DNA of 64,000 nucleotides from Rhododendron vialii (taxonomy: Eukaryota; Streptophyta; Magnoliopsida; Ericales; Ericaceae): the NCBI RefSeq assembly GCF_030253575.1, contig NC_080569.1:1570001-1634000 (forward strand). Reading direction: 5' to 3'. Of this stretch, positions 7,259 through 39,436 are shown piece by piece. A program made the translations under genes and the position numbers. How positions within the stretch are numbered: the first letter of the stretch is position 1; every line of letters begins with the position of its first letter. The notes below the pieces were generated by a model. That model saw only the letters and a list, made by a program, of their open reading frames with translations, searched no databases and had not been told where the DNA came from.

Positions 7259-8468
7259 CTACGATAGTTTCCTCAGACATGTCTCATAATCGATGGCCAG
7301 TTCAGCAGGGCTCACTTTACCTGTAAAAACGTCCAACAACTGGGGAACTTCTTCAGCATACTTGGTGACATACCTATCTAAGAAGTATTTGTCGTTCCTA
7401 ATTAGAACACTGGAAAGGCACACATCTTTCGAAATTAAGCCTTTTAAGATAAGAACTTTCAGAATTGTACACCTTGGGATAATCCTCCTTTTCACACTAT
7501 ATCCAAGGACACATGGAACTTTTGCAATTGCAACTGGCTTCCAACCCATCTCGTTGACCAGAAAATCCATCGCGCTCGTTATTTTCTTCTCAGATAGACT
7601 CATACAAAGAGGGAACTTTTTCAATGCTAGTTGAAGATCATCCTCAGGCCAACCACACTTCCTAAAAACTTCCATTTTATGCTCCCAAGCTGAGTTACTA
7701 AGTCCAAGCATCATTGTCAAGATCGGTACAATCGCTTTTTCCCAAGGCTTAGGTTCCATTTCTACAACCTTCTTCAGTGTCTCATCAAACTTCTGGGAAC
7801 TCTGTAGTAGCACAGTCGGATGATGAGTGAACAAGGATGACAAACTAGAAGCAGGAACATTGAGTCCTCTCAAAGTCGCAACTTTGGGAACAATATACTT
7901 TTCCAAATTTGTACAGAACAAACGAGGTGAGTGCTTGAAAGATCTTCCTATTTGGTTATCATCCAGAAGGATTGCACTTTTCAGATAATTGTAAACAGGG
8001 ATAATCTGGTTGTTGAGGCTATGATCCAAGACATTTGGGTATGAAGAAATGATATTTGCAAGGTCAGCTGTTGGAATGCCTATGGACTGGAAAAATTCAA
8101 GTTTTGGCAAAAGGATGTGTTTGGGATCATATGAAAGTAAAAACGGGCGTATTCTGACAAGTTTGGAGATGTGGGTATCGGTGAAACCGTGATTTCGCAG
8201 AAGGGCGATGACAGAATCTGGTTTCTCTGCTGATCGAAAATTTGACCTTTTGGGATACATGAAGAGCAGTTTCAGTTTCTTGGGACAACCCATATGAGGA
8301 AATGAGATACGTAACTGTGAAAGATTGTTCATCAGCTTTGCTTCTCTTTGATGAGAATGATTTCACCGAATTAGTAATAGATGATCTAAGCAGTGTTTGG
8401 GGTGAGTGAGTGAGTCACGTGAAGCCGAACCATTTCTCAGCAAAACTAGCTGTATTTCTGCACAACAT
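7259..8468 (-). pseudogene. mTERF-family gene A, N-terminus disabled
   Basis: This is a single-exon mTERF-like locus closely related to gene B. The ATG at 8468 opens MLCRNTASFAEKWFGFT and aligns with the start of B, but a TGA stop follows at 8417-8415. A second break is one extra A in the run at about 8237-8240, which shifts the frame between KVKF and RSAEKPDS. From there the frame is open to the stop at 7259 (about 320 residues), covering the tandem mTERF helical repeats (PDSVIALLRNHGFTDTHISK, LLPKLEFFQSIG, GLISKDVC, KYAEEVPQLL). The ATG at 8332 starts in the wrong frame and is not the native start. The gene is probably dead, or expressed only as an N-terminally truncated product without a transit peptide. 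Sequencing error at the A run is possible, but the stop is independent. Confidence 0.8.
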
Positions 8469-8680
8469 TTGGTTGCTATAGGAAAATATTGAAGAAAGAC
8501 AGCTTACTGTGCTCAATACTTTGTTTTGTGACTCTTCCCTTCGTTTCCCCCAATATCCAAACCCACCCTTTGTCTGTTGTGCGTGCGAGAGGGAGAGAGA
8601 AATCAAGAAAAGGTAGTGAATAATAAACTTGTGAGTTAGGGTTTGGGTTGATGTTTGAGTCACCAATGAAAAATTGGGGT

Positions 8681-9054
8681 TTGGATCCCCTCAAGTGTGC
8701 TACAAGCCAGTATCATCCATTGTGTGGTTGGAATTTACTCAATTTATCAACTTTCATATCTATGGCTACACTTCTGCCACATGGACCAATTCATTCAATT
8801 TTTACTTTCCGTTTTTTTTGTTTTTTATCATCTATTGTGCGTTGGGACTGACCCGATAAAAAAGAAGGACCCGCCATATTAAGTTTTCAGGTACAAGAGG
8901 AAAATCAAAAACAAAGAAAAAGGAAAATAAAAATTGGATGAGCTGGTGCATGAGGCAAAAGTATAGCCGTAGATATGAAAGTGGATGGATTGAGTCAATC
9001 TCAACTACACAATGGATGTTACTGGCTTGTAGCACACTGGAGGGGAGCCGAACC
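8681..9054. mobile_element. 374-bp foldback element upstream of mTERF A
   Basis: Two arms of about 160 bp are inverted copies at roughly 80 percent identity. The shared motif is GTGTGCTACAAGCCAGTA on the left at 8695 and its complement near 9019-9036. The outer ends are TTGGATCCCC and GGGGAGCCGAA. The spacer is about 50 bp. Both arms give similar spurious open frames. It lies about 200 bp upstream of the start of gene A, so it would be within or next to its promoter. Confidence 0.65.
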
Positions 9055-9218
9055 CGAACAATTACAGTAGAACTCAAAGCCAGAAAAATCAGACCTTGTT
9101 CTGAGAGCAAATAGCAGCGGAAAGGCCCTCAATAGATTGCGCCATTGTGGAGATGGTTGATAAACCCCATTATATCTCGCACAACCTGTCTTCGAAGACT
9201 GAGAGCATCTCCAGCCTT

Positions 9219-9402
9219 TAGGAATGGCAATTTCGGCCGATCTGACCCAACCCGATCCGTTTCCCGCCCCAAATGGATAGGAGATTCGGGGATTATTTGG
9301 AGATCGGGTAGGGTATGGGGATAATTTTTTTTAAAAAAAGTGGGAAACGGGTAGGGAGTGGATATGAGTTAGTCCCGCCCCATCCCCGCCCCAAATCCCC
9401 GT

Positions 9403-9481
<79 letters not shown>

Positions 9482-11150: not shown

Positions 11151-12350
11151 CTAAGATAGTTTCCTCGCACACTTTTCCTCAGATTCGCAACCTAGTTCAG
11201 CAAGGCTCATTTTTCCACTGAAAACATCCAACAACTCAGGAACATCTTCCTCATACTTGGTGACAAACTTATCAAGGAAGTACTTGTCATCTCCAATTAA
11301 AAAAGTGGCGAGGCTCACATCTTTCTTCATTAAGCCTTTCGATATAAGAACTTTGATAACTAAACACCTTGGAATAGTCCTCGTTTTCACACTACAAGAG
11401 AGAACTCTTGGAACTTTGGCAATTGCAGCTGGCTTCCAACCCATCTCGTTGACAAGGAAATCCATCGAGCTCATTATTTTCTCCTCAGATAGACCCATGA
11501 AAACTGGTTCCTTTCGGAATGCTTCTCGAAGATCATTCTCGGACCAACCGTACTTCCTAAAAACTTCCCTTTTACGCTCCAGAGTTGATTTACTAAATCC
11601 CAACATCATTTTCAGTACAAGGACAAACTTTGTTTCCGTTGGATGGAATCCCATTTCTACAACGTCCTTCACAGCCTCATCAAACTTCTTGCAACTTTGA
11701 AGTAGCACACCAGGATGATAAGTCACCAACATTGACATTTTGGAAGCAGGAGCACCTAGTTCTCTCAAAGCTGAAACTTTGGGAACAATTTTGTTTCCTA
11801 AATTTACAGAAAAAAACCGTGGCATGGCCTTCAAAATTTGTCTTACTTGCTTATCATCTAGAAAGATTACACTCTTCAGATAATTGTAAACAGGGATAAT
11901 CTGGTTTCTTAGGCTACTTTTCAAGAGAGTTGGGTATGAAGAGAAGATATTACCAAGGTCAGCTGTTTGAATCCCTATGGACTGGAAAAATTCAAGTTTG
12001 GGCAAAAGGGTGTTTTTGGGATCGGCCAAAAGCAAGTCAGGGCGCGACTTTGAGAGTTTGTAAATATGGCTATCAATGAAGCCATGATTTCTCAGGAGAG
12101 TGAGGACCGAATCCGGCTGCTCTGCGGATCGAAATTTCACCTTTCGGGATGCATTGAGAGCAGTTCCAGGGGATAACCCACATGAGGAAATGAGATATGA
12201 AACAGTGAAAGATTGTGCATCTGTTGTAAGTGTCTTCCATGAGAAGGATTTCGCAAAGAATGTAATCTGAGATACAGGGAGTGAATCGGGCAAGTTGCAT
12301 AAAGCCCTTCCATTTGTGAGCAAAACTAGTGATAGTCTTCTGCACGACAT
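11151..12350 (-). CDS. mTERF-family protein B (intact, 399 aa)
   Basis: The product is a predicted organelle-targeted mTERF protein; the family binds organellar nucleic acids through tandem helical repeats and acts in transcription, splicing or RNA processing. It is a single exon with ATG at 12350 giving MSCRRLSLVLLTNGRALC, a basic, hydroxylated N-terminus fitting a transit peptide (about residues 1-45). The mTERF repeats follow: SYLISSCGLSPGTALNASRK, PDSVLTLLRNHGFIDSHIYK, DPKNTLLPKLEFFQSIGIQT, LRELGAPASKMSMLVTYHPG, KREVFRKYGWSENDLREAF, FLVNEMGWKPAAIAKVPRVL, and a C-terminal KYEEDVPELLDVF. The roughly 400-residue length is usual for plant single-exon mTERFs. Its nearest relatives are A, C and D in the same strand block. 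No stop or frameshift is seen. Whether it enters mitochondria or plastids cannot be decided here. Confidence 0.9.
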   Translation of the reverse strand: MSCRRLSLVLLTNGRALCNLPDSLPVSQITFFAKSFSWKTLTTDAQSFTVSYLISSCGLSPGTALNASRKVKFRSAEQPDSVLTLLRNHGFIDSHIYKLSKSRPDLLLADPKNTLLPKLEFFQSIGIQTADLGNIFSSYPTLLKSSLRNQIIPVYNYLKSVIFLDDKQVRQILKAMPRFFSVNLGNKIVPKVSALRELGAPASKMSMLVTYHPGVLLQSCKKFDEAVKDVVEMGFHPTETKFVLVLKMMLGFSKSTLERKREVFRKYGWSENDLREAFRKEPVFMGLSEEKIMSSMDFLVNEMGWKPAAIAKVPRVLSCSVKTRTIPRCLVIKVLISKGLMKKDVSLATFLIGDDKYFLDKFVTKYEEDVPELLDVFSGKMSLAELGCESEEKCARKLS

Positions 12351-12379: not shown

Positions 12380-13610
12380 ACTGAGAAAAACAGTTGAGGC
12401 ACTAAAAAGAGGAAAAAGGTTGAACGAAGCTTATACCTAGATGCGTAGCAGTAGAAAAGCCCAACAAAGGATTGCAGATATCGTTGAATCCCCAGCCAGC
12501 CAGCCAGCCACAATCGCTCATCAACAGCCTAAACCCACAACTTCAATTGACCCTATTCTTTATGCCTTGTTCCTCTAAAAAAGTTTACCGGCTTTTGTGC
12601 TTTTTTTGTTTTCACCCAATTCATTTTTTTTTTTTTCGCGTTTTTAAATTTTTTTTAGTTTTACATCAAATTTTTATGAATTATTATTTGGTTTTATCTG
12701 AACGAAATGGAAAGGCTTTATCTTATAGTATATTTTCAGTAAATATTAGGGTAAAAGTAAACACTTTATGGGTTCTCCTCTCAAAAATATTCTCTCCAAA
12801 ATTTTTGATTGTTTCATCATCCGTGTTTTTTCCGTTTTTGGTAATTTTTTTATCAGATTATTTATTTATTTATTTCATTTTTCGGAGGTATATAGTGTAC
12901 CCCTATTTAGAAAATAAAAGAATTTGTTAAAATATTTAAAAAATAGACTAAAGACGAAAAAATATGCAAACCTATAGAATTTTTTTATCTCATAATTGAC
13001 AATCAATTTTTTTTTTTTCATTTTTTCGATTGCTCTCTTCAAGGCGAATCAATAATTCACAAAAGTTTTGTACCAAAAAAGAAATTCATAAAAGTTTGGC
13101 ACGAAACTAACCCCAAAAGCTCTTAAGAGAAGTAGCCACTGCGGAACAATTGCCAACTTCGCTAATTCATCCATCAAGGTGAAAATTCGTGCTTCTGATG
13201 GCAATAATTTGGTGAAGACCAGTTTTGCAGGTTGTAGGCAGTAAAAGTCAAGAATCTCTTCTCTTTTCTTTTCCTTTTTTTTTTGAACTGAGTCAGAGAA
13301 TCTCTCGAGCCCTCACTTTGACACACGAATATGACCACATTACGCTAAGAAATCTGAAAAATTCTGCCAACACACTTAAACAACCAGTTTGAGCTTGTTA
13401 GAGACCTTCCGACAAACAAGCACGAGCCTTCAATATCATAGGATGTTGTTACTTTCTCTTCACAACAGTACAGCTTGAACAACTAATGGTAGCCAGCTGA
13501 AGAAATCAGAGGATTGCACTAAAAATTGCTTTGACACATGAAGTTCATACGGTGGAAGAACCTAAAGTATCAAATGGACCTATACGAATCGATAGTTGTC
13601 CGACACATGA
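12380..13610. other. AT-rich spacer between mTERF B and C
   Basis: 12351-12530 resembles the 5' flank of the other minus-strand members. A CCAGCCAG run lies at 12492-12510. From 12540 to 13610 the DNA is T-rich with no coding or transposon ends that I can define. Confidence 0.4.
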
Positions 13611-13619
13611 AGTTGTTAT

Positions 13620-14816
13620 GCCACATGTTCCTCAGATTCAAAGCCCCAGCTCAGCAAGTCTCCCTTTTCCATTGAAAACATGCAACAACTGGGGAATATC
13701 TTCCTCATACTTGGTGACAAACCTATCTGAGAAGCATTTCCGCTCCTGTAACAGTGGAACGACTCCAAACTTTTGAATTAAGCCTTTTGATATAAGAACT
13801 TTCATAACCAAACACCTTGGGACAGTCGCTTTCTTCCACACTATAAAGGAGAACTTTTCGAGCTCTTCCAAATGCAGCTGGCTTCCTACCCATCTTGTGC
13901 ACAATGAAGTCCATCGTGCCTGTTATTTTCTTCTCAGAAAGCCACATAAAAAGAGGGACTTTATTGAATGCTAGTTGAAAGTCATCTTCAGACCAACCAC
14001 ACTTCGTGGAAACTTCCATTTTATGCTCCTAGGATGATTTATTAAGTCCAAACATCATGCCTAAGACCTGTACAAACGTCTTTTCAAAGGATTAACTCCC
14101 ATTTATAAAACCTCTTTCACAATCATATCAAACTTCTTGGAATTCCATTGTAGCACAGACTGATTATGAGTCAACAAGACATGACAATGTGGAAGCGGGA
14201 ACATTGGGTTCTCCCCAAGTTGCAATTTCGGGAACAAGTTTCTTTTCTAAACTTGTAGCGAACAAACGTGGCGAGTACTTCAAAGATCTTCCCACTTGCT
14301 TAAAATCTAGAAGAAACATATTATTCAGATAATTGTAAACAGGGACAACCGGACAAGCTTGTTGCTTAGGCTACATCTGAAGAGAGTTGGGTGTGAAGAA
14401 AGGATCTTCGCGAGGTCAGCAGTGGGAATATGCCCATGGACTCGAAAATTTCTAGTTTGGGCAGAAGAGTGTGTTTAGGATCAGCTAAAAGTAAATCTGG
14501 GCGTGCCCTGATGAGTTTGGGGACATGGGTATCGGTGAAGCCATGATTTCTGAAAAGGGGGAGGACCGAATATGGTTGCTCTGCTGATCAAAAATTGACC
14601 TTTCGGGATGCACTGAGAAGATAACCAGTTTCAGGGGATAACCCACATGAGGAAATGAGATATGAAACTGTTGAAAGATTGTCCGTCTCTTGTGAGTGTC
14701 TCCAATGAGAAGGATTTCGTAAAGAATGCAATCTGAGATGTAGGGAGTAAATTGGGCGAGTCGCATAAAGTCATCGCACTTGTGAACAATACTAGTGATA
14801 ATCTTTTGCGCGAATT
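13620..14816 (-). pseudogene. mTERF-family pseudogene C
   Basis: This is a decayed full-length copy of the B/D type. Pieces in three frames align in order with gene B: KCGWSEDDFQLAFNKVPLF, LSEKKITGTMDFIVHKMG, VPRCLVMKVLISKGLIQK and KYEEDIPQLLHVFNGK. The start position reads ATT at 14815-14813 where B has ATG. There are at least four breaks, including frame changes inside the repeat region and a one-base change just before the normal C-terminus (LAELGL). No frame longer than 115 residues remains. It sits head-to-tail between intact genes B and D, so it is a dead tandem duplicate. Confidence 0.85.
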
Positions 14817-16129: not shown

Positions 16130-17350
16130 TCAGATGTGTGAAGCTGAGATGCTACAACTGTTTCCTCCTGATTCCTTCTTAGATTCAAGGCCCAGTTCAG
16201 CAAGACCCACTTCTCCATTGAAAACATCCATCAACTGGGGAACATCTCTCACATACTTGGTGACAAACTTATCCAAGAAGAATTTGTCGTCCATTGTTAA
16301 AACAATGGAGAAGAACACACTTTTTCCTATCAAGCCTTTCAACATCAAAACTCTGACAACCAAAAACCTTGGGATGGTCCTCTTTTTCAGATTATAATTC
16401 AAAACCGACGGAACATTGGCAATTGCAGCTGGCTCCCAACCCATATCATTCACAAAGAAATCCATAGCGCTTATTATTTTCTCCTCAGATGTACCCATGC
16501 ATTGAGGGCTCTTTTTGAATGCCAGTTGAAAGTCATCTTTAGACCATCCACAATTCCTAAAAACTTCAATTTTACGCTCCCATGTTGATTTACAAGTTCT
16601 AAGCATCATTTGTAGGACATAAACAAATGTTGTTTTCAAAGGATTGATTCCCAGTTTTACAACCTCCTTCGCAATATCGTCAAACCGGTTGCGATTTCCA
16701 ATGAGCACATGCGGATAGCTCATCAATATAATGACCAAATTAGACCCAGAAACTTCAAGTTTTCTTAAAGTTGCAATTTTGGGAACAATATCCGTTTCTA
16801 AACCCGTACCGAATAACCTCGATGAGGACTTCAAAGCTCTTCTTACTTGCTTATCATCGAGAAGAATAACACTCTTTAGATAATTGCAAAGAGGAATAAG
16901 TTGGTTGTTTAGGCTACGCATCAAAAGAGCTGGGTTTGAACAAAGGATATTGGTAAGGTCAGCAGTTGGAAACCCCAAAGACTGAAAAAATTCAAGCTTG
17001 GGCAAAAGGGTGCGAATGGGATCAGATACAAGCACATCCGGGCGTGTTCTAACAAGTTTGGAGATATGGGAATCGGTGAAGCCGTGGTTTCTGAGAAGGG
17101 TGAGGACAGAATCTGGTTGGTCTGCAGATTGAAACTTCACCTTTCGGGATACACTTAGAGCAGTTTCAGGTGACAACCCACATGAGGAAATGAGATAAGA
17201 AACTATGAAAGATTTGTTATCTAGGTTTTGACTCTTTGATGAGAAAGATTTGATAAAGAATGCAATCTGAGGTTTAACAAGTATTTTGGACAAGTCACAC
17301 AAAGCACTAGCATTTGGGACCAGAAGTAGCACTGCCGTTTTATGCGCCAT
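16130..17350 (-). CDS. mTERF-family protein D (intact, 406 aa)
   Basis: Intact single-exon mTERF gene. I place the start at the ATG at 17350 (MAHKTAVLLLVPNASALC), which aligns with MSCRRLSLVLLTNG of B; the open frame continues upstream to 17416 but without an ATG. The N-terminal 45 residues look like an organelle transit peptide. The repeats follow: SYLISSCGLSPETALSVSRK, PDSVLTLLRNHGFTDSHISK, RTLLPKLEFFQSLGFPTADL, LRKLEVSGSNLVIILMSYPH, KIEVFRNCGWSKDDFQLAFK, FFVNDMGWEPAAIANVPSVL and KYVRDVPQLMDVF. The C-terminus has an extra Ser/Lys-rich tail (KKESGGNSCSISASHI) absent from E-H. It is transcribed divergently from gene E across about 660 bp. The exact organelle and target RNA are unknown. Confidence 0.9.
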   Translation of the reverse strand: MAHKTAVLLLVPNASALCDLSKILVKPQIAFFIKSFSSKSQNLDNKSFIVSYLISSCGLSPETALSVSRKVKFQSADQPDSVLTLLRNHGFTDSHISKLVRTRPDVLVSDPIRTLLPKLEFFQSLGFPTADLTNILCSNPALLMRSLNNQLIPLCNYLKSVILLDDKQVRRALKSSSRLFGTGLETDIVPKIATLRKLEVSGSNLVIILMSYPHVLIGNRNRFDDIAKEVVKLGINPLKTTFVYVLQMMLRTCKSTWERKIEVFRNCGWSKDDFQLAFKKSPQCMGTSEEKIISAMDFFVNDMGWEPAAIANVPSVLNYNLKKRTIPRFLVVRVLMLKGLIGKSVFFSIVLTMDDKFFLDKFVTKYVRDVPQLMDVFNGEVGLAELGLESKKESGGNSCSISASHI

Positions 17351-18006
17351 TTGTTTATAGATCAAGAAATAGTATAGTGGAGGAGTAGAAGAGGGAGAGG
17401 TCAAAACAGAAAACAAACGAAATTTTGTTAGGGTTTAGGTTGTGCAGTGAACAGACTCAATTCGTGCATATAAATAAAAGATACAGAGATTTCACACAAG
17501 CCAAAGATGTTGTGGGAATACCTGTGTGTATGGCTGGAATACCATTGTAGAATTGATGGGTAAGATGGAGGGAGATTGCAGTGTCCGTGCCCTAGGTTGG
17601 GCAGTCTATACGAAGAGAAGAAGACGTGAATTTTTGGAGATCATAGAAAGGGCGTAATAGCCAGACACGCTTTTGTCGAAAGTAAGTAGTTAGCGTCATC
17701 ACCAAACACACTTTCAAAATAAACTCATTACCCCAAGGGGAAGGGTTCCGGTTGGGTATGTTTAGCAACGAGATAAACTTTCTTACGGATTGTATAGTAA
17801 CTCCATAGATTTTTACATTTCCTCCCTTCTCCTTCACTGCAAACAAACCCGAACTCTACGATGGCAATTGTACCCCAATTTCCCTCTAGACTTCATTAGT
17901 ACGCAGTGAATTCAAGATTCTAGCCTCCAGGACCACAGATTGAGAAATCCCAGTGACTTATTACAAGCACAGTGAGTTCTCCTATTCTCCACTCTACTGT
18001 GTCACT
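17351..18006. promoter_or_regulatory. Shared intergenic region of divergent mTERF genes D and E
   Basis: This 656-bp interval separates the ATGs of D (minus) and E (plus) and must hold both promoters and leaders. The right part, from about 17900 to 18000 (CCAGGACCACAGATTGAGAAATCCCAGTGAC-type words), recurs upstream of F, G and H, so it belongs to the duplicated unit of block two. It marks the join between the two orientation blocks. Confidence 0.6.
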
Positions 18007-19254
18007 ATGTTTTTTGCATTTCTTGATATCAAACTGTTCCCAATCAACAAGGCTGTAGTATATTCAACACCCCCACTTTTTTTCCTCCACACCAAGCCAT
18101 TGTTTCTCAGACCCATTTCCTCAGTCCCACTCTGTAGTAGCCTGACAAACACAAGTGGGTTGTATCCACAGACTGATTTGTCTCCGGTAACTTTAACTAA
18201 ATCCACTTCGTCAAATCAAGATTCATATGTTGTCTCCTACCTCATAGATTCATGTGGGTTGTCGCCAGAAATTGCTATTTCTGCTTCTAAGAAGTTGGAA
18301 TTTGAAACCCCAGAAAGGCCAGACTCCGTGCTTAACCTTCTTAGAACCTATGGATTTACAGATACCCAGATTTCCAAGCTTGTGCGGAAACAACCAAAGC
18401 TGCTTTTAGCCAACTCTGAGAAAACCCTTTTGCCCAAACTCGAGTTTTATCAGACCTTTGGTGTTTCAAGATCTGACCTTTTAAGAGTTCTTTCTGGAGA
18501 TGCAAACATGTTGTTAAGAAGCTTAGAGAATCACATCATACCTTCCTACAATTTCTTAAAGTCTGTGCTGAAATCTGATAAAAAGGTGCTTTATGCCATG
18601 AAGCGCACATCATGGAATGTTTCAGCAGATTATACGAATTATGTTGCTCCAAATATTGCTGTTTTGAGGGGATTTGATGTGCCCGAATCAAAGATTGGGT
18701 TGTTATTGACTCATCACCCTGAGGCTATATTGAAAAAGCCTGAGCACTTTAAGGAAATTGTTAACATGGTTAAGGAAATGGGGTTTGACCCTTCTAAATC
18801 GACATTTCTGCAAGCAGTGCATGCCATAGGGAAGAGTAACAAGGCCATTTGGGATCGATGCTGTGAATCATTTGGGAAGTGGGGTTGGTCTAGGGATGAG
18901 ATTCTCTCGGCATTCAAGAAGCAACCACATTGTATGATTCTATCAGAGAAGAAGATTGCAAGAGGAATGGACTTCATTGTGAACAAGATGGGGTGGTATT
19001 CCAAAGACGTTGCAAGAAATCCTACGATTCTGCTTTATAGCTTGGAAAAGAGGATTGTCCCGAGGTGCTTGGTTATTCAAGTCTTGTCATCGAAGGGCTT
19101 GCTAGAGAAAGATTTGAACTTGAGTACAATATTGATGCCACCAGAGAAGAGGTTCTTGGAGAGGTTTGTGATTAGTTATGAGAAGGAAGTTCCTCACCTG
19201 TTGGGTGTATATCAAAGGAAGGTGGATATTCTGGACTCTGGAGTTATAAATTGA
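18007..19254 (+). CDS. mTERF-family protein E (intact, 415 aa)
   Basis: Intact single-exon gene, first member of the plus-strand block. The ATG at 18007 (MFFAFLDIKLFPINKAVVYS) aligns with the starts of G, H and I; the frame is open further upstream but without ATG. Residues 1 to about 60 are rich in Leu, Pro and Ser with LFLRPISSVPLC, fitting a transit peptide. The repeats follow: SYLIDSCGLSPEIAISASKK, PDSVLNLLRTYGFTDTQISK, KTLLPKLEFYQTFGVSRSDL, LRGFDVPESKIGLLLTHHPE, CESFGKWGWSRDEILSAFKK, FIVNKMGWYSKDVARNPTIL and SYEKEVPHLLGVY. The family acts on organellar nucleic acids. It is closest to F, G and H, with which it forms a tandem segmental series. The C-terminus ends LDSGVIN. Confidence 0.92.
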   Translation: MFFAFLDIKLFPINKAVVYSTPPLFFLHTKPLFLRPISSVPLCSSLTNTSGLYPQTDLSPVTLTKSTSSNQDSYVVSYLIDSCGLSPEIAISASKKLEFETPERPDSVLNLLRTYGFTDTQISKLVRKQPKLLLANSEKTLLPKLEFYQTFGVSRSDLLRVLSGDANMLLRSLENHIIPSYNFLKSVLKSDKKVLYAMKRTSWNVSADYTNYVAPNIAVLRGFDVPESKIGLLLTHHPEAILKKPEHFKEIVNMVKEMGFDPSKSTFLQAVHAIGKSNKAIWDRCCESFGKWGWSRDEILSAFKKQPHCMILSEKKIARGMDFIVNKMGWYSKDVARNPTILLYSLEKRIVPRCLVIQVLSSKGLLEKDLNLSTILMPPEKRFLERFVISYEKEVPHLLGVYQRKVDILDSGVIN

Positions 19255-19869
19255 ACAGCGATGGGGTAAATTTGCTTTTTCCCAACCACTATAGGATATT
19301 CTTATTTGGATTGTTGTCTGTGCTAGAAATTGTAGGACTCTGATTTAATTATTTGAAGGTTATGTTTGGTAGGAGATGACTATTAACAAGGTTAAAGCTT
19401 GAACTCCTAAAGTTGTGTACTTTGTGCTCCGTGTATTGGCCTTACTCACCATTTAGCCTCTAGTTCAGGGCTCGTGTTACCTTTCTAGAGTCTTCTTTTT
19501 CTTCCTCATTTGAGTAATTTGATTGGCATTTCTGTCCTAGAACGGATGACTTGAACTCATCTCTTCAATTTGATTATCTTTAAAGGGTTTTAGGCCAAGG
19601 ATGTGGTCTATGTGGATTCAAAACTTCCATATAGGAAGCATGATCTGAAGTTTCTCCGATTCCTATCTGATTCACTAAGTACTCCATGCTTGCTTGTTTT
19701 TGCTTTAATGGCACCTTATCACGGTTGTTGTCTTGTTGAGTTTCTTGTTTTCATTCAACTAGAATTTTTTGTGTTATAGCATTCTACGGTTCTACCATGA
19801 AAATATGGACCTAAAGAACGTTTTTGATAGCTGTCTGGTTGTTCTTTGTTTCGTACTTATTGAGTGCAA
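19255..19869. other. 3' flank of mTERF E, part of the duplicated unit
   Basis: Non-coding sequence whose words (TAACGGTTATGTTTGG, ACTCCATGCTTGCTTG) recur after G (27690-28080) and partly after H (33870-34160). It shows that the duplicated segment extends well past the coding region. Confidence 0.6.
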
Positions 19870-21338: not shown

Positions 21339-21359
21339 TCCCTGAAAATTGAACAAGTA

Positions 21360-27565: not shown

Positions 27566-28204
27566 AATGAATAGCGATGGGGTAAAATTTCGAAGCAAAA
27601 TTGCTTTTTCCCAACTCGTGGTTACTAATTTGCAGGGCTTCGTTGTTATTCTAACTTGGATTGATGTCTGTGCTATTCTAGGACTCTTGATTTTAACGGT
27701 TATGTTTGGAAGGAGATGACTATTAACAAGGTTAAAGTTTGAACTCGTAAATTGTGTACTTTTGCACCATGTTTTGGGCTTAGTCACCTTTGCCCTTAGT
27801 TTAAGGCTTGTGTTACTGTTTTAGAGTAAATAAGTTCTGGTTTGTCTTCTTACCAACAAAAGAAAAAGTTCCAGTTTTTCTTCTTCAATTGTTTAATCTA
27901 ATTGGCATTTCGTCCTTCTAGAACAGATGAATTGAACTCGTGTCTTCAGTTTTGTTATCTTGAAAGGGTTTTAGGTCAGGGATGTGGTCGATATGGATTC
28001 AAAACTTCCATATAAGAAGCATGATCTGAAGTTTTTCCGATTCCTATCTGATTGACTATGCACTCCATGCTTGCTTGCTTTCGCTTTAATGGCACCTTAT
28101 CACAGTTTTTGTCTTGTTGATTTTTTTTTTATTCTAATACGAAATTTCATGTTAAAGCATTGTACATGTATACCCTGAAAATTTTGACCTAAAGATTTGT
28201 ATAC

Positions 28205-28440
28205 CATTTTTCGGAAGGGTAAAGAATCAATTTGGGATCAGTGCTGTGAAGCACATATGAAGTGCGGTTGGACAGGTTGATCTAAGGATGAGCATCCCAT
28301 GGCATTCAAAAAGCAACCACATTGTATGATACCGCCGGACAAGAAGATTATGAGAGCAATGGACTTCTTTCCAACAAGAGGGGTGGGCACTCTAAAGATA
28401 CTACAAGCAACCACATCGTTGGTACTCGGTTAGTACTTTA
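28205..28440 (+). pseudogene. mTERF remnant 1 in unit G
   Basis: A short decayed piece matching SIWDQCCEA-x-MKCGW, KDEHPMAFKKQPHCM and MRAMDFF of the E-H group, with frame breaks. It corresponds to the second half of remnant 1 after E and H; the first half is missing here. Confidence 0.7.
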
Positions 28441-28559: not shown

Positions 28560-29225
28560 CAAAAATTGAGGTAGTATCAAAAAATCCAGGGCTAGTCAAA
28601 ACCCTCCTGATGAACTACGGGTTCCCACATCTCCGAACTTGTCAATGCGTACCCAAAGGTCCTTTTTTGTGATCCATGGAAAACCCTTTTGCCCAAACTC
28701 GAATTCTTTCATTCAATAGGCTTATTGCCCACGGACCTTCCAGGAATTATCTGTGCATCCCAAGTCTATTGTGCCGAAGCTTAGAAAAGCAGCTCATCCC
28801 TTGCTATAATTTCCTCACTAGTGTACTTTCATTTGATGAAAAGCGTAGTTTTAGGATTTTTAAGCAATATGCATGGAAAAGAAGATTCCCCCGCGAATAG
28901 TGGTGCTGAGAGGAGCAGGGGTGCCTCAGTCCATTATCTTGTGTATGCTGTATTGTTCCCCTACCACAGTGACTTATGAGTAATGAGAGTCAAAAATTTA
29001 AAGAAAGTTCCAATAAGGCTATTGGAATGGGGTTCAATCCAGTTAAAACGACATTCGTTTACGCAGTCCAAGTGTGGGATTGTGTCAAATGTGTGACTCA
29101 ACATTGGAGCTGGGATTGACGTTTTCCTGAGATTGGGTTTATCTAATGATATGATGGCGGCATTCAGATCACACCCGCCGTGTGTGTATTTTTCTGAGGG
29201 CAAAATTATGGAAACAATTGGAGGT
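28560..29225 (+). pseudogene. mTERF remnant 2 in unit G, 5' part
   Basis: It aligns with remnant 2 of unit E: FPHLRTCQCVPK-like start, WKTLLPKLEFFHSIGLLPTD, RSLEKQLIPCYNFLTSVLSF, VLRGAGVPQSIILCMLYCSP, and RLLEWGSIQLKRHSFTQSK-like repeats. The reading frame is interrupted several times. It is separated from its 3' part (30170-30475) by inserted DNA. At the place where unit E carries the RTE LINE, this copy reads straight through. Confidence 0.7.
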
Positions 29226-30165
29226 TGTTTGGTAAAGGTTTTAAGGGAGGTTTCTTGGGTAAAAGTGGGGATAGATAGATATAGATAGTGATTTAAAAAG
29301 TGCACTTCGAAGCCAGGTGTGGGTATGGGGCTTCAACATGTTGAAGCGAGGCGCGGGTGGCAAAGTGCCGGTGAGGCGCATGAAGCGCGCGTTTAATGAT
29401 CAACTCTAAGAAATATGTCTTTAATTAGAACTGTTCATTGTTTGAAGTCAATCTAACGCTGAATAAGATCGAAAGAGCTTTTAATGAGATCAAAGCACCC
29501 AATCATAGCTCTTATAAAATGCCCTAAATCCTATTACGTTTTCCACTGGCGCTTCTTCTACAAAACTACTACTCTGCATATTAGACCGCTAGTAGCCAAC
29601 TATTACTTCATCACTCAATTCACGTTTCTAATTTCTAAAGCTAAACATTCAAATATTAGTTTTTGATGGATGTGTAGTATGTTCTTTTGTTATTGTTTCC
29701 TTGTTTCATATATGGTCACTTGATGTCATGTATGATTATTGACATTCTACCTTTTGAACTTCAAAGTATGGTACTTGGCTTATTATGTATGTTGCTTTCA
29801 ATAATAGTTGTAATATTTGATGATATTGGGTCATTTTATCATTTGGTAAGGTACATTATACTCTAATTTTTATCAATGTGCGCTTCACTTCAGTAAGGCG
29901 CGCGTTTCACGCTTCGTCGCTTAAGGGCCCTTGTCACTTCGATGCCCTTCGGTCTTTGTAAAACACTGGACAGAGATGAGTAATAAGTGAAGAGAAAACT
30001 AATTGAAAACCGTGCACAGAGAGGGGGCGGTTTGGGGAACCACATGTGAAGCAAGCCCCAGTTTTCTAGTGGAAAATATGGGTTGACATCTTGCAATTGT
30101 TGCACTTCTTGAAAGCTGTCCAGACAGAGAGGAGGTGGTTCAGGGAATTCCAAGTGAAACAAGCC
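29226..30165. mobile_element. Inserted DNA splitting remnant 2 of unit G, probably hAT-like
   Basis: Between the two halves of the remnant lies sequence with AAGTGCACTTCGAAGCC near 29298 and an inverted CTTCGATGCCCTTCGG...TTTGTAAAACACT end near 29937-29965, with GGCGCG-rich subterminal words (29345-29395 and 29895-29925). This pattern fits hAT-type plant elements. From about 30010 to 30165 a 90-bp segment (GAGG-GGTTC-GGGAA-CC, CAAGCCC-AGTTTTCTAGTG) is duplicated in tandem. No target duplication is certain. Confidence 0.45.
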
Positions 30166-30476
30166 CAGTTTTCTAGTGCAAAATACGTGTTGGCATCTTC
30201 CAATAGTTGCCAGATATCTGCCTATGCTCTTCTACAATCTGGACAATCCCAAGGTGCAGGTTGGTTAAAATACTGCTGGAAAATGGCCTGTTCACGAAAG
30301 ATTTGAGCTCAGGTAGTATTTTACTATGCAGTGAAAATTGTTTCTTGGATAAGTTTGTGAAGAAATATCAGTATGATGTTGCTGGTCTGACTGACATTTA
30401 CTTGGGACAACATATATTCTGGAACCGATATTGGGATCTAAGACATGAAAAGAACCCAAAACTGTTCGCATGGTAG
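30166..30476 (+). pseudogene. mTERF remnant 2 in unit G, 3' part
   Basis: It contains a frame resembling ICLCSSTIWTIPRCRLVKIL, then ENCFLDKFVKKYQYDVAGL and a terminal RYWDLRHEKNPK. This is the C-terminal end of the second mTERF lineage, matching 22080-22290 in unit E and 36510-36770 in unit H. It is not functional alone. Confidence 0.7.
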
Positions 30477-32542: not shown

Positions 32543-33757
32543 ATGCTTTCTGCACTTCTTATGAAGATCGTAATATATTCAGCACCGCCACTTGTTTTCC
32601 TCCACACCAAGCCATTGTTCCTCAGACCCATTTCCTCAGTCCCACTCATTAGCCTTACAAACTCACTTGGGTTGTATCCACAGACTGATTTGTCTCCTGC
32701 AACTTTAACTAAATCCACTGCGTCGAATGGAGAATCCTATGTTGTCTCCTACCTCATAGATTCATGTGGGTTGTCACCAGAAATTGCTATTTCTGCGTCT
32801 GAGAAGATAAATTTCAAAACCCCAGAAAGACCAGACTCCGTGCTTAACCTACTAAGTACTCATGGATTTACAAAAACCCAGATTTCCAAGCTTATGGGGA
32901 AACGACCGCATCTGCTTTTGGCCAATCCTGAGAAAACCATTCTGCCCAAACTCAAGTTTTTTCAGGCCTTAGGTGTTTCGAGACGTGACCTTGCAAGAAT
33001 TCTTTCTGGAGCCCCAACCATCTTGGAAAGAAGCTTAGAGAAGCAAATCATACCTTCCTACAATTTCCTAAAGTCTGTGCTTCGGTCAGATAAGAAGGTG
33101 GTGTCTGCCATGAAGCGCACGGCATGGGTTTTTTCAGTACATTATACGAGATTTCTTGTTCCAAATCTCGCTATTTTGAGGGAATTTGATGTGCCCGAAT
33201 CAAGTATTGGGTTGTTATTGGCTCATCACCCTGAGGCTTTAATGCAAAAGCATGAGCAGTTTAAGAAAATCGTCAACATGGTTAAGGAGATGGGGTTTGA
33301 ACCTTCTAAATCGACATTTGTGCTAGCGGTGCATGCCATTTCAGGGAAGGGTAACAACTCAATTTGGGATCGATGCTATGAATCATATGGGAAGTGGGGT
33401 TGGTCAAAGGATGAGATTCTCTCGGCATTCAAGAAGCAACCACATTGTATGGTTCTGTCAGAGACAAAGATTACACGAGTAATGGACTTCCTTGTGAACA
33501 CGATGGGGTGGCGTTCCAAAGACATTACAAGATATCCTGCAATTATGCTTTTTAGCTTGGAAAAGAGGATTGTCCCGAGGTGCTTGGTCTATCAAGTCTT
33601 GTCATCAAAGGGCTTGCTAACGAAAGATTTGAGCTTGAGTACGATATTGACGCCACGGGAGGAGTGTTTCTTGGAGAGGTTTGTGATTAGATATGAGAAG
33701 GAAGTTCCTCAACTAATGAAAACGTATCAAGGAAAGGTGGATATTCTGGAGTTATAA
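32543..33757 (+). CDS. mTERF-family protein H (intact, 404 aa)
   Basis: Intact single-exon gene starting at ATG 32543 (MLSALLMKIVIYSAPPLVFL). Relative to G the N-terminus lacks about seven residues. The transit-like region (LFLRPISSVPLISLTNSLGL) precedes the mTERF repeats: SYLIDSCGLSPEIAISASEK, PDSVLNLLSTHGFTKTQISK, KTILPKLKFFQALGVSRRDL, LREFDVPESSIGLLLAHHPE, CYESYGKWGWSKDEILSAFK, FLVNTMGWRSKDITRYPAIM and RYEKEVPQLMKTYQGK. Differences from E and G are concentrated in surface positions of repeats 2 to 5. It is followed by the most complete set of decayed remnants. It faces gene I, 4.4 kb away, in convergent orientation. Confidence 0.92.
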   Translation: MLSALLMKIVIYSAPPLVFLHTKPLFLRPISSVPLISLTNSLGLYPQTDLSPATLTKSTASNGESYVVSYLIDSCGLSPEIAISASEKINFKTPERPDSVLNLLSTHGFTKTQISKLMGKRPHLLLANPEKTILPKLKFFQALGVSRRDLARILSGAPTILERSLEKQIIPSYNFLKSVLRSDKKVVSAMKRTAWVFSVHYTRFLVPNLAILREFDVPESSIGLLLAHHPEALMQKHEQFKKIVNMVKEMGFEPSKSTFVLAVHAISGKGNNSIWDRCYESYGKWGWSKDEILSAFKKQPHCMVLSETKITRVMDFLVNTMGWRSKDITRYPAIMLFSLEKRIVPRCLVYQVLSSKGLLTKDLSLSTILTPREECFLERFVIRYEKEVPQLMKTYQGKVDILEL

Positions 33758-34309: not shown

Positions 34310-34690
34310 TCTTTATTGGACATGAGTTACCCTGATGCTATTATGCAAAAACATTTTCAGTTTAAGGAAATTGTTAGCGAGGTTAAGGAGATGGGGTTTG
34401 ACCCTTTGAAGTCGACCTTTGTTCTGGTGGTGCATGCCATTCAGGGAAGAAGGAATAAACCATTTTGGGATCGGTGGTTATGAAGCATATATGACGTGGG
34501 GTTTGTCTAATGATGATTACCTCGGAACTCAAGAAGCAACCACACCGTTTGATTCTGAGGCACACGAAGATTAACTGAGAGCAATGGACTTCTTTGTGAA
34601 CAAGATGGGTTGGCACTCCAAAGACACTACAAGCTGCCCGACGGTTCTGCTTTTTAGCTTGAAGAATAGGTTGCCTTGGGTTCTTATGGA
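34310..34690 (+). pseudogene. mTERF remnant 1 in unit H
   Basis: It begins mid-protein with DAIMQKHFQFKEIVSEVKEM and GFDPLKSTFVLVVHAIQGRR, then shifts frame to read AMDFFVNKMGWHSKDTTSCP and VLLFSLKNR, after which homology changes abruptly. It has the same left border as remnant 1 after E, showing that both derive from one ancestral truncated copy. Confidence 0.8.
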
Positions 34691-35182
34691 GGATGTGGTA
34701 GAAAAAATTTCTCCAGCTGTGACAGTGTTGAGGCAACTTGGGGTGCCTCAGCCCTCTATCGAATCGTTACTCGTTACTATATCGATCTCATTGGATAATG
34801 GTTGAAAGCAGAGATAGGTTTGATCAGTTTCGAAGAGAGGTTGTTTAACCCTTTAAAAATATCGTTTAATGTAGTAATTCGTGTAATTTCTTGGACAAGT
34901 AAACCAACCTGGGCTCGAAAAGCTGAAGTCTTTAGGAGGTGGGGTTGGTCGGATGATGACGTTCGCTCGTTGCTCAGAAGATACCCCTTATGTATGGCTT
35001 TGTCTTTGGAAAAGATCGCGAATGGGATGCATTTTTTTAAGTGAATGAGAAGGGTTTCCAGCCTTCATCGATAGCTGGAAATCTGATAGTTCTTACTTAT
35101 GGTTTGGACAAGAGGGTCATTCCCAGATGCTATGTCATCAGAGTTCTGAGGCTGAGAGGATTGATAAAGAAGGATATATGCT
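34691..35182 (+). pseudogene. mTERF remnant 2 in unit H, part before the solo LTR
   Basis: Second-lineage mTERF: VEKISPAVTVLRQLGVPQPS, ISFNVVIRVISWTSKPTWAR, KAEVFRRWGWSDDDVRSLLR, RYPLCMALSLEKIANGMHFF, LDKRVIPRCYVIRVLRLRGL and IKKDIC, with two or three frame breaks. It is cut by a solo LTR; the same protein similarity continues at 35797. It begins directly at the end of remnant 1, which indicates an old deletion junction. Confidence 0.8.
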
Positions 35183-35796
35183 TGTAGTGGGCTGAACTGC
35201 TGAGCTAAGGTCCCAACCATGTGTCCTTGAGGAGCTTGGCGGGCTATGGGTCACGGAACGTGAAGTGATTGAGTTTGGCCGAACGATTGGTTGTTGCCGG
35301 AAGATATCCAACCGACTCTTGTGCTTATGTCTCGGAAGTCTCAAATCACGTTCAGGAATAGCCCGGGCTCCATACCCAAACCGTATGCTTTGGGTATAGC
35401 CGATCCGGGTCTGACTTGTCGTACCTGGGTGATTCACAAAAGGTGGTTCACACACATGGGTATAACCATTTTCCAGCCTATGTCATATGTGATGTTAGCT
35501 GAACTGCTGAAGTACCTCGCATGCTGAACACGTACATACTTGGAGGGCAAGTTTTGGAGGTTCTATATAAGGGACAAGGATAAACCCTGAAGAGGTACGC
35601 TGATCACTCTAACCTTAGTGCTTCCTTACTCTTCTCCTACTTCCATCCTGGTTGACTCCGACTCCAACTCCGACTCCGACTGGTTAGGCACTAATGGTGG
35701 GTGTTCATGGCGCAGGTCAGATCCTGTGGAGGAGCCCCAGCCCAAATCCAAGCCAGAGTACCACCGGGTACTACATCGATAAACCAGCACACCACA
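35183..35796. mobile_element. Solo LTR (614 bp)
   Basis: It starts TGTAGTGGG and ends CACCACA (TG...CA), and a perfect 5-bp duplication ATGCT flanks it (35178-35182 and 35797-35801). It contains a TATATAAG promoter-like box near 35564. It looks like a whole LTR left after recombination, with no internal region. Superfamily cannot be decided. It is younger than the decay of the mTERF remnant it interrupts, or of similar age. Confidence 0.85.
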
Positions 35797-35896
35797 ATGC
35801 TCAAGTACTTTTCGTATGTCTGCTGATAAATGCTTCCTAGAAAAATTTAAGACCGAATATGAGGATCGGTTTCCTCAACTGTGGAGCATTTATTAA
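35797..35896 (+). pseudogene. mTERF remnant 2 in unit H, part after the solo LTR
   Basis: It reads DKCFLEKFKTEYEDRFPQLW then SIY and a stop, a normal mTERF C-terminus of the second lineage, directly continuing the similarity that ends at 35182. Confidence 0.75.
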
Positions 35897-36489
35897 GAGA
35901 AACTAGGTTTTTTTAAAACCGGCATTTAACATGAGGGCACTGATAGGTTTATAAAGCTGTAGAGTATCTCACATTATGAACATCGCAATGATTAGCTGAT
36001 ATTGGGTTTCTAGTTGACAATTGTTGTTTTTCCAGTATATTAGATCTACTCCGGCATTCTTCAGTGTGGCGGCACAATTATTTAAGTCTTATTAGGGAAA
36101 TGGCTGTAAGTTGTTTATACCTTTTATGTGGAAGCTCTTCCAGAACCTATAAATTGTTGGAGACTGGAGGTGGTCGTTCCTCGCTTGAGCTAGCTTGCTG
36201 AACGATGGTGATTGACATGTATTATCAGTTTCCTGTACTTTTTGAGTTTGGCTTGTTCTTCTTCTCTTCCTATGTTTTGCAACGAGGTAGTTATTTCAGT
36301 GACATTGACTTGACATAATTTTTGTTCTTTCCCTGCTTTTCTAAATAGTGTATTCATGGTGGCGAGATAGATAGATTCTCTTTGACATCGATGATTTCTG
36401 TGGCTTTAATAGTGATTAAATCAGTTTGTTCCGAACTTGAGTGCTCATGGACTCATGGATTTCCTGTATGACAACTAATAGTAGTATGT

Positions 36490-36812: not shown

Positions 36813-38170
36813 AATCTGAACTTGAATTGCTCTTGGCTGTGTTAGGAGGATTTTGAGAGCTGTGTTATCTATCTCTTACGCTACAAGTTATTTTGTATAA
36901 CTCAAGGTGTTCGGGTCATGTTGCGAGCGCCTCGAACAATCACTAGGGAATGCTTTATTTGTTGCTTGCAGTTAGCTTCCAAGTGCCACATAAGTTCTGT
37001 TTTTAATCTTTACTCTCTTAAGCTTGTAGGACAAAAGGCCATCTGTTGTCAACCAGATTCAGGTCTCCAAGACGCTTTTTCTCAGAACGGTAAAACTGGT
37101 CGACAAATATGAAAAATAGATGTGTATTCGCTTTCCTTTCTGGTCCATTTTGCTTAAAATATGGCCTACTGAGCAAAATCTGACTGATGAGTGATCAATT
37201 TTTCCCATTGGGCAAGCCGGAATTGGTTGGATTAACAACTGATGTGTTTTAAATAACATGCGAGAAATGATTTTGACCATCGCACACCAGTGGTGGGATA
37301 GAATCTGACATGGGTAAACAGTGGTTTTAATTCAAAGATAAGTTCATCCATTCAATTTGTTTAATGTTCATCCATTCAAATTGTTTTAGGATTGATTTGA
37401 TGCTAGAGAAAATGTGGAATGGGAGAGACGGGAAAGGCCCCAGGTACACTGCCTTCATCACCCAAAATTGTGTTTGTTCTTCAAATACGTAGTATGTTAC
37501 ATCAGGTGGTTCAATAATAGCTGAAGAACGTTCTACAATAGCAACACATTTATCTCCCTTCTATGAACAGTCCAGTTTATTGAAGAAGATTAAAATCTTG
37601 AAGAAATTAGGTATACCCTTGAACAGATAATTTATGCTCATTAATTAGGAAACAAGGAGCAAGAAAACTATCCAAAAGCCTTCTTCGGGATAAATTTATC
37701 TCTTTGGTTAATAAGATCCAAGAGGTTTATCGATCCCTGGGGGTGCAGATCCATAATAGGCATGTCGAACTTATTGTAGGTCAAATAACATCAAAAGTGT
37801 TGGTTTCAGAAGATGGAATGTCTAATGTTTTTTAGGGGATAAATGCTCCAACACAAAAATTTCTTGTAGAATGAATCCCTAAAACAAAAAGAAGCAGGCA
37901 TCACATAGATAGTGAAACTTCACTATCATGCTTCCTTCATGGGAGTTGAATCCATATCAACAAAATCCTTGACCCAGAACGCTTTCAGATAACCAACCTG
38001 AAACCAATGATGAGTTCAACTCATCTGTTCTCAGAGAACAAAGTTCAAATTAAACCAGACAGATGACGATGAAAAAACAAAAACTTAGATTTTCTAAAGT
38101 TGCTGCATAAGCCTTGAATTAGAGGCTAATGGTGAGTAAGTACAAGACACGGCGCAAAATACTCAAGTTT
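36813..38170. other. Spacer between convergent mTERF H unit and mTERF I
   Basis: Nothing recognisable. The part next to 38170 is probably the 3' UTR of gene I. Confidence 0.4.
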
Positions 38171-38176
38171 TGGCGT

Positions 38177-39436
38177 TCAAGCTTGAACCTTATCAGTTGT
38201 TTCCCCTTCCAAACCTATACCCATATTAACATTTTCAGTTTCTGACTCCCAAATATCCACCTCTCCAAGGTACACGCTCATAAGTTCAGGAACTTCCTTC
38301 TCGTATTTAGTCACATACTTCTCCAAGAAAGACTCCTCAGATCCTGAACTTACTGAATGCCAGCTCATATCTTCCTTCAGCAAGCCCTTCGATAGCAAGA
38401 CTTTAATAACCGCAAATCGTGGCATAGTCCTGTTTTCCAAGCTAAACGTCAGAAGTAAGGGGTATCTAGCAAGGGCATTCAAAGGCCACCCCATCTTGTT
38501 CGTTAAGAATTCAATTACCCTTGCAATCTTATTCTCAGACACGTGCATACAATATGGGTCCTTTAAGTATGCCGAGCGTATATCATCCTCAGACCAACCC
38601 CACTTCCTGTATGCTGCATAGCACCTGTCCCAAAGGGATCTCATACCTCTCCCTGAAAGGCCATGTATCGCTTTGAGAAAAGCCCATGTCGACATATCAA
38701 ATCCCATTTCCTTAACCTGATTAACTACTTCCTTAAACTGCCTATGATTCTGTATCATAGCATCAGTGTAATGTAGCAATGCGTGATCAATCCTCGATTC
38801 TTCCACTCCAACTTCCCTCAAGAAAGCAATATTAGGAACAAGATTTGTTGTATGATGAGCTGTAAAAATCCATGGAGCTTTCTTTATAGCAGCAACCACC
38901 TTCTTATCTGTTTTAAGAATACTCTTGAGGAAATCATAGTACGGTATGATTCGATTCTCTAAGCTTCTAGTCAATAGTTTTGGATCTATAGTAATCAACC
39001 TTGTAAGGACCCTTTCTGAAACGCCAATATACTTAAAAAACTCCAGTTTGGGCAAAATGTCTTTCTCAAGATCGGCCACAAGCAGTGCTGGGTGTAACCT
39101 CAAAACCTTGGAAATTTGATAATTCGTAACTCCATGGGTTCTAAGAAGATTAAACCAAGCTTCTGTTTTTTCATGTAAATTCACATTCTCATAACCAGGA
39201 ACAGTAACTCGTCGTGACAATATAGGTAAAAAAAATTGATTTGGCGTACTATCTGTGGAGTTCTTTAAGGTTTCAGGAGATAAATCAGTATCTGGGTTGG
39301 ACCCAGATGGGTTTACACAAGAAGGTGCAACTGAGGAAATGGGTCGGAGATATAGTTGATTTTTGTTGGTGGGTTTTGAATCCACTGCCGTTTTCTTGAT
39401 TGGGAACAGATTAACCGAATGAAGTACAGAAAACAT
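38177..39436 (-). CDS. mTERF-family protein I (intact, 419 aa)
   Basis: Intact single-exon gene on the minus strand. The start is the ATG at 39436 (MFSVLHSVNLFPIKKTAVDS), which aligns with the starts of E to H; the frame is open a little further upstream without ATG. The transit-like region contains YLRPISSVAPSC. The first repeat is divergent: the usual YLIDSCGLSPE segment is replaced by LPILSRRVTVPGYENVNLHE. The rest is typical: FNLLRTHGVTNYQISK, KDILPKLEFFKYIGVSERVL, LREVGVEESRIDHALLHYTD, CYAAYRKWGWSEDDIRSAYL, FLTNKMGWPLNALARYPLLL, KYEKEVPELMSVYLGE. The C-terminal tail is longer than in E-H (to TTDKVQA). It is the most divergent intact member, so probably an early branch of block two placed in inverse orientation. 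Confidence 0.9.
   Translation of the reverse strand: MFSVLHSVNLFPIKKTAVDSKPTNKNQLYLRPISSVAPSCVNPSGSNPDTDLSPETLKNSTDSTPNQFFLPILSRRVTVPGYENVNLHEKTEAWFNLLRTHGVTNYQISKVLRLHPALLVADLEKDILPKLEFFKYIGVSERVLTRLITIDPKLLTRSLENRIIPYYDFLKSILKTDKKVVAAIKKAPWIFTAHHTTNLVPNIAFLREVGVEESRIDHALLHYTDAMIQNHRQFKEVVNQVKEMGFDMSTWAFLKAIHGLSGRGMRSLWDRCYAAYRKWGWSEDDIRSAYLKDPYCMHVSENKIARVIEFLTNKMGWPLNALARYPLLLTFSLENRTMPRFAVIKVLLSKGLLKEDMSWHSVSSGSEESFLEKYVTKYEKEVPELMSVYLGEVDIWESETENVNMGIGLEGETTDKVQA

Follow-up and report, generated by a model that had tools for sequence, protein, structure and literature searches.

Do neighbouring copies of an mTERF gene merely accumulate, or does each copy come to recognise a target of its own? 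This question is raised by a 64-kb window of the Rhododendron vialii genome (C13:1570001-1634000; the genome comprises 532.6 Mb in 13 contigs), in which nine mTERF loci span 7.26-39.44 kb. The window copies diversify at three fixed positions of the mTERF repeat (-1, +1 and +4, counted from a repeat anchor), and the same positions stand out in other mTERF arrays of this genome. We consider it rather probable that the locus is a tandem array that duplicates and decays in place, and that the encoded proteins, binders of organellar DNA or RNA, are retuned at these three positions.

The mTERF copies and their repeats

An initial annotation, made from the letters of the window, had proposed nine full-length or near-full-length single-exon mTERF loci. 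All nine (A to I; Table 1) were recovered in place with tblastn and an iterated profile. Of the window's 11 open reading frames (ORFs) with 150 aa or more, 9 belong to these loci. Ten of these 11 ORFs were scanned with Pfam, the first half of F being left out. PF02536 was matched by all eight mTERF-locus proteins scanned (E 2.4e-19 to 6.5e-45; cut-off 23.1 bits), the two other ORFs gave one UBC match and one weak DUF255 match, and no PPR motif was found in the ten. The six intact copies (B, D, E, G, H and I) are single-exon ORFs of 399-419 aa. The annotation had counted six open and three broken loci, which stands for these six and for C and F; copy A is better described as N-terminally damaged, with an open domain.

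Each intact copy encodes an N-terminal leader and, after it, roughly nine mTERF repeats that are 32-39 residues long. The first 45 residues of the six intact copies hold only 0-2 acidic residues, and the structure model of H (mean predicted local distance difference test score 76; seven sequences) is low-confidence at leader residues 1-62; both features are suggestive of a leader of mitochondrial type. The repeat anchors in H are located at residues 90, 122, 158, 194, 230, 265, 300, 332 and 371 (spacing 32-39 residues). The anchor is Pro at six of these positions and N90, A194 and A265 at the others.

Diversification at fixed repeat positions

A genome-wide PF02536 search returned 170 partial matches, and at least five further arrays were found among the matches listed. 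Trees and codon sets were built from ORFs of at least 330 aa scoring at least 360 bits, which kept 34 genes and excluded the whole C8 array. The five codon sets are the two window blocks (A/B/D and E/G/H/I), C4, C2 and C10, which are separate clades or arrays within one genome, not separate species. The C2 set merges two arrays, and the C10 set includes one gene located 1.4 Mb from its array. Pseudogenes C and F are outside the codon sets, as are four rows of the trees (C2 13.60, C13 5.24, C12 30.22 and C9 34.76 Mb), and any column with a gap in a set was dropped.

When each set was left out in turn, the remaining four always ranked -1, +1 and +4 highest (five rounds), with held-out p values of 7.5e-7 for E/G/H/I, 3.8e-5 for A/B/D, 9.8e-8 for C4, 8.8e-6 for C2 and 3.8e-9 for C10. 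A circular shift per repeat gave p 0.0002. The pattern is present in all nine repeats, with a mean rank of 0.63-0.88 at the three offsets against 0.42-0.54, and every step of a register slide from -12 to +12 lowers the mean rank (at most 0.627, compared with 0.763). The within-array amino-acid difference, which depends on no model, also places -1, +1 and +4 on top (0.54, 0.53 and 0.59; next 0.44). Diversification at these fixed repeat positions across the five sets is a firm result.

A posterior above 0.9 for omega (the ratio of the nonsynonymous rate, dN, to the synonymous rate, dS) above 1 in at least one set was obtained at 20 of the 316 repeat sites, and 19 of these 20 lie at -2, -1, +1, +4, +5 or +6, offsets that cover 53 of the 316 sites. 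These offsets were picked after the sites had been seen; the leave-one-set-out result is the unbiased version of this enrichment. Two C10 sites with a posterior above 0.9 belong to the leader (H residues 13 and 24), outside the 316 sites. The residues at -1, +1 and +4 are poor in acidic side chains (4.3% vs 11.6%) and rich in His, Trp and Tyr (12.6% vs 3.3%). In the C8 array, a more distant subfamily of which five genes were used, the positional pattern is weak (p 0.016) and the high-posterior sites are scattered across many offsets.

Correspondence with human MTERF1

Human MTERF1 has conserved prolines along the major groove and five residues that read bases directly, namely R162, R202, R251, R350 and R387 (PMC4705650). 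The sequence profile of the window mTERFs matches MTERF1/3/4 structure chains, and the profile alignment to PDB chain 3mva places R162 at Pro-2, R202 and R350 at Pro+1 and R251 at Pro+9. Among numbering shifts of 0-89, only one places an arginine at all four positions; R387 is outside the displayed alignment. Because of this mapping, +1 corresponds to a base-reading position and -2 adjoins -1. MTERF1 F243, which we take to be a stacking residue, also falls at +1. At offset +9, the site of R251, the residues R, K, H, N and Q make up 51%; this offset changes more slowly, with omega 0.56 when dS is fixed.

In the H model, a short helix begins at the anchor in six of the nine repeats (122, 158, 194, 230, 300 and 332). 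Because the helix starts at the anchor, +1 and +4 are located one helix turn apart in these six repeats and -1 is located in the preceding turn. Offsets -1 and +4 are putative contacts with nucleic acid.

Positive selection or relaxed constraint

Codon likelihoods were computed with a program written for this analysis, and pairs were counted with a Nei-Gojobori script. Pairwise omega is 0.77-1.06 among E, G and H, 0.55-0.57 among A, B and D, and 0.47-1.06 within arrays (comparisons of window block with window block excluded). Gene-wide dN/dS was rejected as the sole test; it is below 1 in 91 of the 93 within-set pairs and masks the positional pattern. Comparison of the M2a and M1a models gave 2dlnL (twice the difference in log likelihood) values of 68.3 for C10, 28.9 for C4, 12.9 for E/G/H/I, 9.0 for A/B/D and 7.9 for C2, where the A/B/D value uses a masked frameshifted start of A (unmasked, it is inflated to 14.3). 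The highest values in null simulations (25 per set, C2 left out) were 5.3 for C10, 4.2 for C4, 9.9 for E/G/H/I and 3.0 for A/B/D. Fixing dS at that of the gene gives a pooled omega of 2.00 for -1, +1 and +4, compared with 0.53 elsewhere. Counted against gene dS, the ratio is 1.50 (95% interval 1.20-1.84) in nine disjoint pairs and 1.44 (0.89-2.14) in the five youngest pairs.

The same positions could instead be those under least constraint, drifting near neutrality in redundant copies while the fold is kept. Several results fit this account or weigh against retuning. Measured against local dS, the counted ratios are 1.04 in the nine pairs and 0.96 in the five youngest. Leaving dS free lowers the pooled omega of -1, +1 and +4 to 1.34 (2dlnL 4.2 relative to an omega of 1), with 0.59 for the rest. 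The values by set are then 1.61 for A/B/D, 1.71 for C4, 1.16 for C2, 1.53 for C10 and 0.74 for E/G/H/I, none of which is significant singly; in E/G/H/I, the plus block, no excess at the three offsets is seen (0.74 vs 0.72 for the rest). Offset +1 alone, likewise with dS free, has an omega of only 0.88, with an apparent synonymous rate 2.2 times the average. Site-rate variation fits better than M2a, and once it is allowed the window blocks reach only 2.1 and 2.3 and do not pass the test. The M2a comparison is not significant for E/G/H without I (2dlnL 4.7), and only three window-set sites exceed a posterior of 0.9 (H123 and E162 in E/G/H/I, Q299 in A/B/D). The residue composition at the three offsets is also near the neutral expectation, so that composition could not tell selection and relaxation apart. 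Two of the loci, C and F, are pseudogenes. In the alignment to MTERF1, -1 and +4 are absent from the four mapped MTERF1 contacts, and R251 falls at +9. Finally, no restorer-like (RFL) PPR match was found within 1.6 Mb of the window array (E <= 1e-60, 71 of 1037 candidates scored; a weaker, nearer match could be missed).

Other results argue against relaxation. With rate variation, C10 retains a 2dlnL of 11.1 (C4 5.3; C2 not run), and offset -1 has an omega of 2.07 with dS free (2dlnL 8.3). There is no obvious reason for synonymous mutation to track a protein repeat, and with gene-wide dS the ratio is 1.50 in the nine pairs and 1.44 in the five youngest. Multi-base codon changes are twice as common at -1, +1 and +4 (38/115 vs 102/648), and the polar offsets -9, +8 and +9 are less variable than these three. 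The case for positive selection is thus moderate for the family as a whole and weak when the window copies are considered by themselves; relaxed constraint, which we consider rather unlikely, therefore keeps some probability. The adaptive expansion proposed in the initial annotation, to be judged by a tree and by dN/dS per repeat, is borne out in part: the blocks cluster, change is raised at and beside an MTERF1 base-reading position, and the site models for the window blocks pass with a uniform synonymous rate; they fail with rate variation, and adaptive as opposed to locally relaxed change is the less supported part of the claim. Our confidence in retuning at -1, +1 and +4 is lowered because the plus block has no excess at these offsets under local dS.

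Growth and age of the array

In the protein trees, A, B and D form one clade (100/100) and E, G, H and I form another (100/100). The two orientation blocks are therefore different subfamilies, as the annotation had claimed, with the exception of I, which is on the minus strand but in the plus-block clade. A possible sisterhood of the two window blocks to the exclusion of other arrays has a support of 73/43 in one tree and 84 in another. Elsewhere in the genome, C4, C10 (including the distant gene) and the C2:13.1 group each form a clade with support 100, and a strong join in the C2:1.06 group covers only two of its three genes. The C13, C4, C2 and C9 genes compose a 21-row group at 95/95, C10 stands apart on a long branch, and C8 is outside the tree.

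Divergence differs between the blocks. dS is 0.13-0.19 among E, G and H, 0.56-0.67 for I against these three, 0.54-0.66 among A, B and D, and 1.8-3.7 between the blocks. E, G and H have in common 80-90 bp of 5´ flank near the start codon (E-G 90% over 84 bp; E-H 78% over 82 bp) and 0.5-0.9 kb of 3´ flank beyond the stop codon; farther upstream, a 450-bp stretch is common to F and G as well. The shared flanks indicate a repeated unit of about 2 kb, comprising the gene, a short 5´ flank and up to 0.9 kb of 3´ flank. A birth-and-death array is supported by these data, and the annotation's wording 'in progress' is a little strong, given that the youngest intact pair (E-G) has a dS of 0.134.

That the cluster is old and static, its copies maintained for dosage or for use in particular tissues and never retargeted, is highly unlikely. 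The age of A/B/D and the distance between the blocks favour this view, but the copies of each block are mutual nearest relatives in the genome, copies are dying, and whole-gene omega reaches 0.58-1.06 in the youngest pairs.

That the pattern stems from the alignment, from recombination or from the codon model is hardly credible: such an artefact is largely refuted for the positional pattern, which the model-free difference reproduces and any register slide lowers, and is possible for omega above 1, given the synonymous rate that appears raised at +1, the recombination detected, at p 0.002 in each case, in the window set as a whole and in C10, C4 and C2, and the differing 5´ and 3´ half-gene trees. 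E/G/H/I has no recombination signal (p 0.47), and halves placed on their own trees in the three sets tried (A/B/D and C2 left out) keep the summed signal, with 2dlnL 64.5 for C10, 31.1 for C4 and 14.6 for E/G/H/I, only 0.4 of the last from the 3´ half. Recombination alone was accordingly rejected as the cause of the positional pattern; as a cause of omega above 1, it was not rejected.

Loci and other features of the window

The eight decayed pieces of the annotation were all found (Table 1). Self-comparison of the window shows that 28574-29221 and 30168-30471 are jointly collinear with 21381-22304; because some pieces belong together in this way, the relic copies number about five or six, not eight.

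Table 1. mTERF loci of the window (window positions) and further mTERF arrays of the genome
Feature	Position	Strand	Description
mTERF copy A	7259..8332	-	open 357-aa ORF with continuous mTERF domain; leader (to ~8414) in another frame
mTERF copy B	11151..12350	-	intact, 399 aa
mTERF copy C	13590..14813	-	pseudogene, pieces spread over three frames
mTERF copy D	16130..17350	-	intact, 406 aa
D/E spacer	17351..18006	.	656 bp; start codons point apart; junction of the two orientation blocks; putative divergent promoter
mTERF copy E	18007..19254	+	intact, 415 aa
Decayed mTERF piece	19848..20315	+	
Decayed mTERF relic	21312..22304	+	collinear with 28574-29221 and 30168-30471
mTERF copy F	23775..25040	+	pseudogene with two in-frame TGA; closest to G, 86% DNA identity including flanks
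mTERF copy G	26342..27565	+	intact, 407 aa
Decayed mTERF piece	28191..28407	+	
Decayed mTERF piece	28574..29282	+	probably first part of a relic completed by 30167..30471
Decayed mTERF piece	30167..30471	+	probably second part of the relic begun at 28574..29282
mTERF copy H	32543..33757	+	intact, 404 aa; reference for numbering and structure model
Decayed mTERF piece	34310..34675	+	
Decayed mTERF piece	34668..35184	+	
Decayed mTERF piece	35795..35923	+	perhaps the end of piece 34668..35184
mTERF copy I	38177..39436	-	intact, 419 aa; clusters with E, G and H despite minus strand
Further mTERF array	C4:41.16-41.26 Mb		
Further mTERF array	C2:1.06-1.08 Mb		
Further mTERF array	C2:13.07-13.14 Mb		
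Further mTERF array	C10:31.40-31.79 Mb		
Further mTERF array	C8:4.57-4.61 Mb		

Three other features of the window were recorded. Self-comparison revealed inverted arms at 58799-59278 and 59433-59912, 480 bp each, 97.7% identical and about 150 bp apart, a possible source of a long hairpin; one arm overlaps the start of the UBC-like ORF 57939-58841 (UQ_con E 2.9e-16). The ORF 47057-47605, which has a weak, sub-cut-off match to DUF255/Thioredox_DsbH and an internal 57-bp duplication, may be the opening exon of a larger gene. A short repeat dispersed at 40007-40291, 48918-49170 and 48822-49118 (88% and 74% identity) occurs in either orientation and is perhaps a small transposable element.

Relation to restorer-like PPR genes

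A search for RFL-PPR genes co-located with the window array found none among the candidates scored. Of the 58 matches, 48 are on C4:33-39.5 and C2:3.7-6.8 Mb; the RFL-like PPR match on C13 that comes closest to the array lies 1.7 Mb from it, at 3.30 Mb. The query was one C4 PPR gene, classed as RFL-like partly by its tandem array and partly by a resemblance that we presume. Two short mTERF fragments (C4:36451856-36452065 and C4:36515244-36515447) are each located 1.3-1.4 kb from an RFL-like PPR match; the two pairs are perhaps copies of one mixed unit, as reported in cereals.

Discussion

The shared flanks suggest that unequal exchange multiplied a unit of about 2 kb. Some of the copies died. 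The surviving copies are predicted most likely to bind organellar DNA or RNA, and duplication followed by change at -1, +1 and +4 would retune the target sequence of each copy, in the manner of restorer-like PPR proteins. As to the driver, conflict with mitochondrial genes of the cytoplasmic male sterility kind is the likeliest that we can infer, and we propose it tentatively. A larger idea, which is possible and somewhat doubtful, is that -1, +1 and +4 constitute an mTERF specificity code and that clustered plant mTERF arrays form a second, PPR-independent system through which the nucleus repeatedly rewrites recognition against the plant's own mitochondrial genome. If so, the natural variation among arrays would suffice for mTERF proteins to be decoded and reprogrammed, much as the PPR code was first hinted at by the way selection acts on RFL genes. 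The fast-changing, repeat-fixed positions already provide a short testable list of residues, including one MTERF1 base-reading position. If these residues set specificity, nuclear-mitochondrial conflict would be fought through mTERF arrays as well as through restorer-like PPR genes, and the mTERF repeat would be a candidate programmable binder of organelle DNA or RNA.

The initial annotation held that such clusters are known mainly from PPR genes, which does not agree with the literature. Publications describe tandem mTERF clusters in Arabidopsis (PMC3471360), in maize (PMC3981765) and in barley (PMC8319850), an RFL-mTERF clade has been named (PMC10226603), and clusters or an expanded subfamily are also described in PMC7913399 and PMC7759465. 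mTERF genes are candidates at rye and barley restorer loci (PMC8035072, PMC8431178, PMC7154926). The Arabidopsis chromosome 1 cluster (nine genes in 70 kb), several genes of which are listed as mitochondrial, resembles the window array in its local tandem duplication (PMC3471360); here, at least six arrays are found in one genome, with relics. The duplicates of barley subfamily IX also represent tandem expansion within one subfamily, and their gene-wide Ka/Ks (nonsynonymous to synonymous) of 0.15-0.57 was read as strong purifying selection (PMC8319850); the accessible part of that report gives no analysis by repeat position.

The cereal RFL-mTERF clade is an expanded, clustered mTERF group that evolves like restorer-like PPR genes (PMC7759465, PMC10226603). 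The trait of being expanded and tandemly clustered is shared by the arrays on C13, C4, C2 (two), C10 and C8. In contrast to the cereal clusters, which are reported to adjoin or mix with RFL-PPR clusters, no such neighbour of the window array was found within the distance and among the candidates given above.

Two further systems concern recognition itself. The prokaryotic pTERF proteins bind DNA with mTERF-like repeats, and their authors raise reprogrammability through different repeat arrangements; they are distant homologues without the mTERF proline and leucine features, and the accessible part of the report describes no diversifying positions (PMC11417379). Human MTERF1 has the same repeat with a groove-lining proline, and, of its base-reading residues, the two at Pro+1 fall on a diversifying position and the one at Pro-2 lies next to one; unlike the arrays, it is a single human gene whose termination site has been mapped, and it reads a base from +9 as well (PMC4705650).

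No recognition code for eukaryotic mTERF proteins was found in the literature surveyed, and no report of repeat-position diversification in mTERFs was found in the open-licence literature, a scope outside which most subscription papers fall. Clustered mTERFs are already known, and the repeat-position pattern is what the literature surveyed did not contain. The restorer-like PPR genes offer a parallel from a different family, in which an established code governs how repeat positions 5 and 35 recognise RNA (PMC5075784). These are clustered, rapidly evolving, organelle-targeted repeat proteins with the highest diversity at base-recognising positions, and high substitution at particular motif residues led to the PPR code (PMC5075784). 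The peak at -1, +1 and +4, of which +1 is base-reading in MTERF1 and the contacts of -1 and +4 are putative, resembles that route.

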